Positions 8,132 through 15,040 of a stretch of 64,000 bases of DNA are shown piece after piece. Source of the DNA: Utricularia gibba (Eukaryota; Streptophyta; Magnoliopsida; Lamiales; Lentibulariaceae). Below the pieces are notes generated by a model, which did not search any database, was not told where the DNA came from, and worked only from the letters and a program-made list of their open reading frames with translations. The position numbers were made by a program, and so were the translations under genes. Location: the NCBI GenBank assembly GCA_002189035.1, contig NEEC01000015.1, positions 806,001 to 870,000 of the forward strand, given 5' to 3'. Position 1 is the first letter of the stretch; each line of letters begins with the position of its first letter.

Positions 8132-8594
8132 CTTTAATTTAAAAGAACTCAGTTGAGGAGGATGTTGAGAGACAGGGGAGAACCTCTTGAGTGGCAAGAT
8201 TCTGAGGGAATTTTTAGCAGGCAAAATTTAAAAGACTGAGCAGCATCCTTCTTCTGAAGCCCAGCGGCTTGCTCTGAAGTGAGGAGGGGTCCAGCCCACG
8301 GCTCCCAATGGCTCGCTCTGGTTGTAGACATGATCCCAACCATGATGCGCTATGGAGCCTGGGGTCTTATTTTCGGTGATATTCAATTTTAAATATTATA
8401 TTGCACCAAGAATACAAACCCAAGATGCCTTCTTCCATCTCTTTTTATATATAATATTCAGTACATCCGGACGTCACGTTGAAATTTGATGGGCCCACTT
8501 TTTACATCATCATTTTTGTGCCATTACATAAATGCCCCCGAAAGCAACACAGGTTTTGTTGCTGCCTTGGATCCACCCGCCTTCAACTGCGCAC
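8132..8594. promoter_or_regulatory. UGT upstream region with TATA-like box
   Basis: Contains TATATATAA at about 8446-8454, roughly 140 bp before the UGT start codon, a plausible core promoter. A 65-codon minus-strand ORF from 8343 leads toward the anthranilate synthase remnant, but I found no good donor joining the two. Confidence 0.45.
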
Positions 8595-10007
8595 ATGGAT
8601 ACCATCGTTCTGTATCCTTCTCCGGGAATGGGCCACCTGATTTCCATGGTGGAGCTCGGAAAATTCATCCTCCGCCACCGCCCGTCCGCTTCCGTAACCA
8701 TCCTCCTCATCCAGGCTTCCTTCAACACTGGGTCCACCGCAGCCTACATCCGCCACATCTCCGCCACCGACCCTTCCATCGTCTTTCGCCCACTCCCGTC
8801 TATTGAACTCGACATCAACTCGTTTCCGACCATGGAATCTGTTATTTTGGAGGTGATTCTCCGCAGCAACCCTGCAGTCGGGGAAGCCCTGAAGTCGATT
8901 TCCTGCTCCGGTCCGGTTTCCGCCTTTGTGATCGACTTTTTCTGCGGTCCTGCTCAGCTGGTGGCCGCCGAGTTGAGCATACCCACGTACTATTTCATAA
9001 CGTCTGGTGCTGGCGTTGTTGCGCTTTTTCTTTACTTGCCTGTTCTCCATGATTTGTACGATAAAAGCTTTGAGGATCTGGACGAGATTTTGGATGTTCC
9101 GGGAGTTCCGCCATTTCCGTCTTCTGATATGGTGGTGCCCTTGCTTAATCGGAGCACCGCTGATTACAGGGACTTTCTTGAAGGCGCGCGATCTTTACCG
9201 TTGTCTTCCGGCCTGCTAATCAACACATTCGACAGCCTGGAAACGAGAGCTCTCGAGGCTATACAATCAGGAAAATGCAACCCCCGGGGCGTTACGCCGC
9301 CTGTCTTCTGCGTCGGCCCACTGCTAGATACTCAGCCGAAAAGCGGCGGCGGCGGCGACTGCCTGAACTGGCTGGAGAAACAGCCGGTTAAAAGCGTGGT
9401 GTACATTAGTTTTGGGAGTTTGGGTTTGTTATCCGCGCCGCAATTACGAGAACTCGCCATTGGATTGGAGAGATCTGGTCAGAGTTTCATATGGGTAGTC
9501 CGCTCGCCCCCGTCGAGCGATAAGAGCAGGCGCTTTCTTCCACCTCCGGAGCCAGATCTGGAATCCCTCCTCCCGCCGGGTTTCCTGGAGCGGACGGCGG
9601 ATCTTGGCCTCGTGGTCAAGTCGTGGGCGCCGCAAGTGGCGATTCTAGGGCATCCGGCGGTGGGTGGCTTCGTTACCCACTGCGGTTGGAACTCGATCCT
9701 GGAGGCAGTCATCGGCGGCGTGCCGATGGTGGCGTGGCCGCTGTACGCGGAGCAGAAGTTTAATCGGGCCCTATTAGTGGAGGAGATGAAACTGGCGGTG
9801 GCCGTGGAGTGCGGCGCCGATGGGCTGGTGCTGGCAGCAGAAGTAGAGCAGCGGATTAGGGAAATCATGTCGCCAGAATCTGAAAAAGGAATCCAAATAA
9901 GGAAGACGGTCGCCGAGATGAAAGCAGCCGCCTCGGCGGCGATGTCTCCCGGCGGCTCCTCTATTGCCGCGCTCAATGCGCTCTTCGAAATCTCCAAGTC
10001 AACATGA
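8595..10007 (+). CDS. UDP-glycosyltransferase, UGT88-like (family 1)
   Basis: An intact single-exon frame of 470 residues, typical for plant family-1 GTs that move a sugar from a UDP-sugar to small phenolic or terpenoid acceptors in the cytosol. The N-terminus MDTIVLYPSPGMGHL carries the catalytic His (residue 14). The 44-residue PSPG sugar-donor box spans residues ~344-387, from WAPQVAILGHPAVGG to PLYAEQ. Its position 22 is Trp (THCGWNS) and it ends in Gln, which by the usual rule favours UDP-glucose. UGT88D glucuronosyltransferases have Arg at that Trp. MVELGKFIL and the YAEQKFNRALLVEEMK region suggest the UGT88 clade. The ATG at 8595 was chosen over an in-frame ATG 63 bp upstream because family members begin there. 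The acceptor cannot be read from sequence. Confidence 0.93.
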   Translation: MDTIVLYPSPGMGHLISMVELGKFILRHRPSASVTILLIQASFNTGSTAAYIRHISATDPSIVFRPLPSIELDINSFPTMESVILEVILRSNPAVGEALKSISCSGPVSAFVIDFFCGPAQLVAAELSIPTYYFITSGAGVVALFLYLPVLHDLYDKSFEDLDEILDVPGVPPFPSSDMVVPLLNRSTADYRDFLEGARSLPLSSGLLINTFDSLETRALEAIQSGKCNPRGVTPPVFCVGPLLDTQPKSGGGGDCLNWLEKQPVKSVVYISFGSLGLLSAPQLRELAIGLERSGQSFIWVVRSPPSSDKSRRFLPPPEPDLESLLPPGFLERTADLGLVVKSWAPQVAILGHPAVGGFVTHCGWNSILEAVIGGVPMVAWPLYAEQKFNRALLVEEMKLAVAVECGADGLVLAAEVEQRIREIMSPESEKGIQIRKTVAEMKAAASAAMSPGGSSIAALNALFEISKST

Positions 10008-11124: not shown

Positions 11125-12425
11125 ATGTCTTCCGACAAAAACGCTAAGAAGGCAAATCTCTTGGACCATCACTCGATCAAGCACATCCTTGATGAATCCG
11201 TCACTGAGGTACTTGGATATACGCATCGTTTGATAGAATTTCGGGGTTTATTTACTTATTTGTGTTGGGAAATCCTGGTTTCCACGACTTTTAGTTGTTT
11301 TCTGTTGTAGATCGTGACTGCCAAAGGGTACCCGGAAGATGTGAGGCTGAGCAACCTTCGCTTGTTACTTGGGTCAATCGTAATCGTGATTGCTCTATTT
11401 GCTCAGTTTTACAACAAGAAATTTCCTGAGAATCGCAATTTCCTCATCACTTGCATTGTCTCATATCCTTTTATTAATCATGTGGGTGACGAGATGGTAG
11501 CGTTTGCTGTCATATGTTTGGCAAGTAAATTGCACTATTCAAATATTATTTCCGTTTCTCCGTTTACGGTTCCCTCTATTTTTTGAATTTATGTTCCTTG
11601 ACGGTGGCAAATATGTTCTGGTGAATGGGGTATTGCAACTGATCATACACTTCAGGGAAAAGAACGCCATTCTGTTCACCTATCCACCTCCTGTGAGTTT
11701 TTTCCTTCTGTGGTTTACTTCCATTGGAAACTTCATTTAAAGGGTGGTTTAGATTTCTTGAACGCTACCATTGTTATTCTTCTCCGGTGTATGGTTTTAT
11801 TTTTCTTGAGGGGGATGCCTTGGCTCAGTTCCTTGTACTCATAATCCAACAAGCTTGTCTTTAATGTTCGATTTAAGGATTCACTTCCACTGGAAGATAG
11901 TTCTATAGACTTTTAACCTTGAAGGAGATGTTGTCCCCTTGTGTCTTCTTATTCCTTTAGTAACTAACAGTTGCAATCATTTTGCTCTCAAGCCAACTCT
12001 CCTATAGGTTCAGCCTGTATTCTCTCTTTTTTTTTTCTGGCCAAGAGTTTTATATGATGGAATTGCTCAACAGGGATCTTTCACCTCTACTGGCCTGCGA
12101 TTGACTTCCAAACTTCCAAGATTCTCAGATATCTACACTCTTACAATTGCAAGTGCAGATCCACAGTCAAAAGCTGCTAAACCCACAGTCGAGCTGTCCA
12201 AAAGTGTCACGCGCTGGTAATTTTACACCATTCCGTTTCTACAATTTGCCCGATGGCAGATCACCTTCCCTCATTTCCATTTATGCCATCCTTTTATTTT
12301 TCCACGCACTGATAATCTGTCCTTGCAGGTTCACCAAAGATGGTGTTCTGGTTGAAGGCCTTCTGTGGAAGGACGTGGAAGCCCTCATAGACGAGTATGC
12401 CAAGGAGCCCAAAAAGAGCAGATAA
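11125..12425 (+). CDS. SPCS2: Signal peptidase complex subunit 2 (SPCS2/SPC25)
   Basis: Five exons (11125-11208, 11311-11462, 11611-11692, 12074-12216, 12329-12425) join in phase to 185 residues, the normal length. SPCS2 is a non-catalytic ER-membrane subunit that links the signal peptidase to the Sec61 channel. Two membrane spans are visible: LLLGSIVIVIALFAQFY and FLITCIVSYVLVNGVLQL. Conserved C-terminal motifs are KNAILFTYPP, GSFTSTGLRLTSKLPRFSD, YTLTIASADPQS and WFTKDGVLVEGLLWKDVEAL. The second intron (11463-11610) has no GT-AG solution. It starts ATATCCTTTT, contains TTCCTTGAC and must end in AA to keep the conserved frame, so it appears to be spliced by the minor (U12) spliceosome. The second span is coded across that junction. 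Confidence 0.95.
11463..11610 (+). other. Putative U12-type AT-AA intron inside SPCS2
   Basis: The 148-nt intron begins with ATATCCTTTT, a full match to the U12 AT-AC donor. It carries TTCCTTGAC at 11594-11602, matching the U12 branch-point consensus, with the branch A 9 nt before the 3' end. The only junction restoring TCIVS-YVLVNG needs a phase-2 join after 11462 and an intron ending in AA at 11610. No AG exists between about 11520 and the conserved exon. Confidence 0.75.
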
Positions 12426-13581
12426 AGGTGTTCCGTTTCATTGGGGTTTGGTATTTGAAGGCAAGATTCATTTCACGGTGGCAGTTGGACCCCTTCCGCG
12501 ATAAGAACTTGGTTTCTCTGCTACATTTGTGATTGCATTCTGATCCAGATTATCAACACCTCTACGCAATGCATTTTCCCATCAAACCAATCATCAGTAC
12601 CCTCAGTATAGTTTGTAATCAAATTATCGAATTTTTCTAGAAACCTTGTACGATGTGAGTTATTGTTCGGGATATTTACACCGTAACCGTACAAGACTTG
12701 CACTCGACAGATAAACACTGTCAAATTAAAGCGAGATAGACTAAACTTGGGGACTAGAATTGGGCAGGGGCCGCGCGGACGCAGGCCCCCTCTCAAACAA
12801 ATTACGACGTAGGCTCGACCACTTGGGCCGACCTTAGGCGGGCGCCCCTCCCAAGTGCAATGGAGGTCGCCAACCCAGGCCATGGACACTCCTGATCGTA
12901 CATCGACCCCGTCCAGGTAAGTATTTATCACGGTGGACGCCCCTCCCCTGAAATACTACAGCCTCTCCCATCCAAATACTTCCACTTCCGATGTGGGGTG
13001 CGATCCTGACGCCTAAAACGTTCCTGTGTGCATGACATTAGAAGTCACAGACAAACAAACAATCTCTCATGGAGAAGAATCTCCACAGGAAAAAAGAACC
13101 CTGAAAGCTTAGTATTCCAAAATCGAGAAGATATCGACTTCCCGGTTTCTGTCATTGTTTCACCGCACATTTCATAGTGCACAAGAACGTTCGAATTGCT
13201 TTGGTGGTGATCATGTTCATGACATCTTAGATGAAGAAAACTTGGAAGTGTCATTTTGCCTTTTGCATCGTAAATGGCAGTTTACATGTCCACTACAATG
13301 ATTTGGAAGTTGATAGGTACACAGCACTGCAAGGAAAATGTGAATGGCACAAGATCACTAACTGTAGAGTGGCACAGCCGCACAGATTCATAGATTATAT
13401 GCTGAGTAATGAGTTCAAAAAAGCCTTCAAAAGAAGGCAAGTTCTGAGACACAAGAAGCTGCAAATGCTGTTTGCCTTCTGTACCATGGGATCCAAGTGT
13501 CTGCATGCTCACGGCTTCCATGAAAAGAATAGAAGAATATAGTAGAGATGGGGGGGGTATACGACCTGAAGCTTTCCCGAG
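12426..13581. other. Convergent intergenic region with a GC-rich block
   Basis: 3' flanks of SPCS2 and the translocator gene. About 12760-13030 is noticeably GC-rich (GGGGCCGCGCGGACG, GGCGGGCGCCCC) against AT-rich surroundings and may be a decayed mobile-element fragment; no family was recognised. A 103-codon plus-strand ORF at 13231-13542 has no recognisable domain. Confidence 0.35.
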
Positions 13582-15040
13582 CTAGGCAATAGGCTTGGAG
13601 TGCTTTTTGGCTTCGCCGTAGAGGAGAACACCGGCGACTGTGAGTGAGTATCCGAGCATCCCGGTGATCGATACGGGATTCCTGAAAATCAGTATAGAGA
13701 TCACAACCGCCAATGCTCCCTTTGCATTTCCAAGGACCTATAGGAGAGAGCAATGCAATAATGAAAAGGGGTAATACAGGGAGAGCATTCACTGAAACTG
13801 AAGGAAGCAGCAGGAAAGTACCTGGAGGGTGAGAGCACTTGTGTGCTTTGTTACTAGAAAATTTGTCAAGTTTACGAAATACGCGAGGGCGGAATTGAAT
13901 AGCAGTAACCAAATGATGCTCATATCGTTCCTTGCAAGGGCCAACGTGAGACCAAGTACATTTTCTTCCATAAAGAGAGTTGCGGGAAGTAGAAGTGCAA
14001 CAGCCAGAGGAGCCATGTACAAGAGCAGATTCATGGAATTCAGTTTTTCCCTTCAATAAAAAATGGTAGCTTTTCAGAATGACACCTCATAAAAGGCATA
14101 AATTAGAACCACAAACTTTTTAATACTACATAGAAGGAGCAATACCCTTCAGCAGAAAGCAAAATGCCTTGAACCACTGATTTCAGGGCCCTGGCAGCAG
14201 TTGCACCAACGCACATGATAAATCCAAACAGATGGAAACTCGGCTCACCCTAACAGCAGAAAATGCAAAAGAATCGTTTTCATTCTAGCAACGGCGGAAA
14301 ATCAGCTATCACACTAAATGAAAATATAGGAACCAAAAACTACCATTTCTCATTCAAGACAACCCCATCCCCAGAGACCCCATTGTAATAACAATAATTC
14401 AGCTATTCGGTGTTAAAAGTGATGAAGTATCCAATCAAACAAAATGCCACTAGCTTTCCCCTCATTTATTTATCAAAATGGCACATGGACGTTGAAAACT
14501 CAGAGAATTGAAAATGGAGAAAAGTTAATCAGCAACACTGTTAACAAATGAAACTACCCAAGCAATCAATAAAGAAGTAAGAGCACTTACCCCACTCGCA
14601 ATGATAACTCCTGTAACAACAGGTATTAGAGTGATGTAAGTCAACCATGCCTCTCTCTTCAGAGTCATCAAATAAGCAAAGATTGCGGTAAAGAATGGTG
14701 TAGTAGCGCCAACGGCCTGATTAAAGCTCACTGGCAAATACTTGAGGGAAATATTGCCACTAACAACCGAAAAACAAAATATCGCGCTAAGTGCACATAT
14801 TTTAATGAACTGACTTCTAGATTTTATCGTCTGCAACGGGACAGTCTTCATCCATACAATAGCGATGTAGCTCAACAACGAACAAACCGTCATGTGACAC
14901 ATCGTCAAGAAAATCGGATATTTGAAGCCGTAATTGCTCAATAAGTACTTGTTCAGTAACAAAACTCCAATGTTGGTAGAATACCATGATGCTACTAACC
15001 CGATCGTGAAAAGCCGACCGGACCCCTTCCCCGTCGACAT
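13582..15040 (-). CDS. Nucleotide-sugar / sugar-phosphate translocator (NST-TPT, KT group)
   Basis: Four exons, right to left (14591-15040, 14146-14249, 13822-14050, 13582-13737), join in phase to 312 residues with about ten hydrophobic spans. It belongs to the plant drug/metabolite-transporter branch of Golgi or ER nucleotide-sugar and organellar phosphate translocators and resembles At3g11320/At5g05820/At3g10290. Diagnostic stretches are [98 protein letters not shown] and a short KKHSKPIA tail. The C-terminal GNAKG..I.I..NP motif is shared with UDP-sugar transporters. The substrate cannot be assigned. The ATG at 15040 gives the conserved N-terminus ([11 protein letters not shown]). Confidence 0.93.

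Follow-up and report, generated by a model that had tools for sequence, protein, structure and literature searches.

A predicted U12-type AT-AA intron in the SPCS2 gene of Utricularia gibba

The SPCS2 (SPC25) gene of Utricularia gibba raises the question of how an intron that begins with AT and appears to end with AA is removed from its transcript. The first-pass annotation had read this intron as a U12-type AT-AA intron, and by the evidence of the sequence this is by far the best reading. We put the probability at about 0.9 that it is an ancient U12-type AT-AA intron, cut after AA 9 nt past the branch A.

The SPCS2 gene and its surroundings

The SPCS2 gene was found at 11125–12425 on the forward strand of the window, that is, the whole 64,000-nt stretch of DNA analyzed, and its spliced translation gave five exons encoding a protein of 185 amino acids (Table 1). 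The protein matched the Pfam family SPC25 (PF06703) from model position 2 to 158/159 (E = 5.7e-40), which corresponds to a full-length domain, and it also matched subunit 2 of the solved human signal peptidase complex (E = 1.5e-15).

Table 1. Predicted exons, introns and splice signals of SPCS2 (positions in the window).
Feature	Position	Strand	Basis
Exon 1 (coding)	11125–11208	+	Spliced translation, tblastn
Intron 1, U2-type GT-AG, 102 nt, phase 0	11209–11310	+	Spliced translation
Exon 2, membrane span 1 and beginning of span 2 (...NFLITCIVS)	11311–11462	+	
Intron 2, predicted U12-type, AT-AA, 148 nt, phase 2	11463–11610	+	Donor, branch site, homology-fixed junction
U12-type 5′ splice site ATATCCTTTT	11463–11472	+	U12 consensus match
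U12-type branch site TTCCTTGAC, branch A at 11601	11594–11602	+	Motif match
Acceptor region GGTGGCAA, AA end	11603–11610	+	Reading-frame/homology enumeration
Exon 3, remainder of membrane span 2 (YVLVNGVLQLIIHF...)	11611–11692	+	
Intron 3, U2-type GT-AG, 381 nt, phase 0	11693–12073	+	Spliced translation
Exon 4	12074–12216	+	Spliced translation, tblastn
Intron 4, U2-type GT-AG, 112 nt, phase 2	12217–12328	+	Spliced translation
Exon 5 including stop codon	12329–12425	+	Spliced translation, tblastn

A tblastn search of the 100-Mb assembly (516 contigs) detected one copy of SPCS2; a second copy with which the acceptor could be compared was not found there, and a weak match (L007) fitted no Pfam family. 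Searches of viral and prokaryotic contig collections and of plasmids returned no relatives, as expected for a plant gene. The non-canonical acceptor might be taken to mean that this copy is a decaying pseudogene that has lost its acceptor, but the rest of its exons have open frames and are well conserved, the remaining three introns are canonical GT-AG introns and the copy is the sole one found, which makes decay extremely improbable.

Three other features were observed near the gene. On the strand opposite to SPCS2, about 340 bp past its stop codon, the stretch 12764–12924 carries a full-length gene for U1 spliceosomal RNA (Rfam RF00003, 127 bits, E = 9.5e-32). An ORF of 491 amino acids without introns (8532–10007, forward strand) carries an HCGWNS stretch, which we take to be typical of plant UDP-glycosyltransferases, its putative family. 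On the reverse strand, an ORF of 171 amino acids (14525–15040) is the apparent first exon of a putative membrane-protein gene, presumably of the plant sugar-phosphate/triose-phosphate translocator type.

Position of the 3′ junction

Joining 11462 to 11611 yielded the SPC25 protein of 185 amino acids without interruption and the best Pfam score of the junctions compared (137.1 bits). The alternatives scored were the in-frame AG at 11655, a GT-AG pair and acceptors one or two codons away; they gave 129.9, 129.2, 123.5, 114.5, and 100.7 bits, a loss of 7 to 36 bits. The alignment with human SPCS2 was free of gaps over the plant junction, where both proteins have S-Y. The claim that the intron has AT-AA ends at the only junction that preserves the second membrane span is thus borne out by both the Pfam score and the alignment. 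Four nucleotides (ATAT) are common to the donor and exon 3 and the junction can formally slide by four bases; it was set at 11463/11610 because only that split places the U12 donor consensus at the start of the intron.

At its 3′ end the intron reads TTCCTTGACGGTGGCAA (...GGCAA), with 11610 as the last base. No AG occurs within 53 nt 3′ of the branch A (up to 11654), and the nearest AC after the branch site is at +38 from the branch A and out of frame. The absence of an AG previously asserted for the relevant stretch therefore holds from the branch site to 11654 and needs correction in its wording only, since AGs are present inside the intron at 11492, 11499, and 11524.

A different junction would require either a nearby U2-type GT-AG pair or splicing of the AT donor to the AG at 11655; the latter combination is in frame, as are several GT-AG pairs. 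However, the scored alternatives disrupt the second membrane span besides losing Pfam bits, and the 54 nt between the branch A and the AG at 11655 greatly exceed the usual distance, so that we consider such a junction very improbable. Enumeration of in-frame GT-AG and GC-AG pairs over exon 2 and the intron gave 30 stop-free combinations, all of which remove or add residues in the membrane region, and none of the 30 restored the protein. This agrees with the earlier view that a normal GT-AG intron cannot explain the gene.

The frame was found to stay open over most of intron 2, with a stop codon at 11584–11586 before exon 3. Retention of the intron would truncate the protein within the membrane region, and production of the full-length protein therefore depends on splicing of this intron.

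Minor-splicing signals and machinery in the genome

The consensus sequences used were RTATCCTT for the U12-type 5′ splice site and TTCCTTRAC, near the 3′ end, for the branch site, and SPCS2 intron 2 matches both. The distance from the branch A to the final intron base is 9 nt; the full U12 donor, the branch site and this distance had been described by the first-pass annotation with exact motifs and coordinates. By chance alone, about one or two copies of either motif would be expected in 64 kb, while the chance of both occurring at the places required by homology is approximately 2e-8 under a dinucleotide model.

The donor was shown to pair continuously with the 5′ regions of U11 and U6atac of the same genome, and the branch site with U12, although the duplex energies are weak evidence by themselves, being equaled by 4–9% of the 11-mers in the window. 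In the proposed mechanism, U11 and then U6atac would recognize AUAUCCUUUU, and U12 would pair with UUCCUUGAC, leaving the branch A bulged. The second step would then cut after AA, 9 nt downstream of the branch A, because neither AC nor AG is nearby, which would assign the intron to the AT-AN subtype.

Genes for U12 RNA (86.2 bits), U6atac (86.9 bits), and U11 (74.2 bits) were all detected above their cut-offs, three exons of CENATAC passed the cut-off, and zf-U11-48K also scored above its cut-off, with one control genome matched as well. A U4atac gene was not found, in a search that matched nowhere and had no positive control; its absence is therefore not shown. Judged from these matches, the genome encodes RNAs of the minor spliceosome as well as CENATAC. 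With the sequence, the junction and the machinery genes presented here, we infer that the AA site is used.

A search of the whole genome for the donor-plus-branch pattern, restricted to exact patterns and limiting the intron counts accordingly, returned 9, 6, and 2 sites in three spacing ranges, compared to 0, 2, and 0 for the reversed-pattern control. Since a Markov model predicts about 6 sites over the three ranges pooled, chance will account for some of the matches, chiefly those with the longer spacings. Most of the candidates whose joined frame could be judged fit an AC acceptor, with a branch-A distance of 9 to 24 nt, and no gene other than SPCS2 shows a clear AT-AA intron in this small and strictly patterned sample. 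Pfam confirmed the junctions in three of ten comparators (two kinesins and one DUF747 protein), the gene identities of the others being tentative.

The optimal branch-to-acceptor distance is reported as 11–13 nt (PMC3584512), compared to which the 9 nt of SPCS2 is shorter. The spacing is not odd in this genome, since the two kinesin genes (L020 and L032), whose joined sequence was recognized by Pfam, contain probable AT-AC introns with the AC likewise 9 nt from the branch A.

Six candidates (L020, L032, L011, L034, L012, and L018) probably represent AT-AC minor introns of other genes and fall into similar pairs, namely two kinesins, two membrane-protein-like genes and two genes with 24 nt from branch to acceptor. 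Two further loci (L015 and L016) represent the same candidate with identical flanks on contig C414 and near the end of contig C415, either through a recent duplication or through an assembly overlap.

The intron might also be an ordinary AT-AC minor intron if the A at 11610 is a rare allele or stems from a mistake in the assembly or consensus. The end seen here differs from GGTGGCAC by a single C-to-A change, and introns of this kind, among them the comparators from this genome, usually have AC as their acceptor. Nevertheless, no hint of an error was detected at 11610, the finding of one SPCS2 copy makes collapsed duplicates not evident, and AT-AA is a well-documented type (PMC10639083), which leaves this explanation improbable.

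Relation to known minor introns and significance

In a survey that covered over 3000 genomes, approximately 4% of the conserved minor introns of plants had non-canonical ends. Of these non-canonical introns almost 75% were AT-AA, the commonest non-canonical type in both plants and animals (PMC10639083). The rarity earlier attributed to the AT-AA pair was thus overstated; the plant AT-AA introns of that survey have the same donor and branch consensus and the same terminal dinucleotides as SPCS2 intron 2 (PMC10639083).

SPCS2 is also an established minor-intron gene (PMC3958305, PMC11039992, PMC2846911). Intron 3 of human SPCS2 is of the minor type and is mis-spliced in RNPC3 patients (PMC3958305), and Trichinella SPCS2 contains an AT-AC minor intron with the donor ATATCCTTTC and the branch site TTCCTTAAC (PMC2846911), ending in AC in contrast to the AA of U. 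gibba. A minor-type intron is thus present in the same gene in animals, its position being compared with that of U. gibba only through the protein alignment across the plant junction. Human and Arabidopsis often share the positions of their minor introns (PMC2426677), and among the papers examined we found none that lists SPCS2 genes of Arabidopsis as containing a minor intron. The intron of U. gibba probably descends from an ancient AT-AC intron whose final C was replaced by A. Since AT-AA is a common type and SPCS2 an established minor-intron gene, the dependence of SPCS2 on the minor spliceosome is probably ancient and shared rather than peculiar to this plant.

In human cells, A-type (AT-AN) introns, including AT-AA introns, require CENATAC (PMC8280824). 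These introns combine an AT donor with a non-AG end, as found here in a genome with a CENATAC gene, the dependence itself being a result from human cells (PMC8280824). A related role in AT-AC introns is ascribed to plant DROL1 in work cited by PMC11039992. The AA acceptor might be a lineage-specific change in this essential single-copy gene that reduces splicing efficiency, so that SPCS2 output would respond with unusual sensitivity to the activity of the minor spliceosome, a reading which we regard as unlikely.

The intron class, the AT-AA ends and a minor intron in SPCS2 have all been documented previously, and the present intron is a modest new example. It offers a clean case of an AT-AA minor intron whose junction is set by homology at the protein level. 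Its host is a secretory gene with a single copy, which gene finders that expect GT-AG introns would probably mis-annotate. SPCS2 intron 2 of U. gibba thus adds to the current knowledge of minor introns without altering it.
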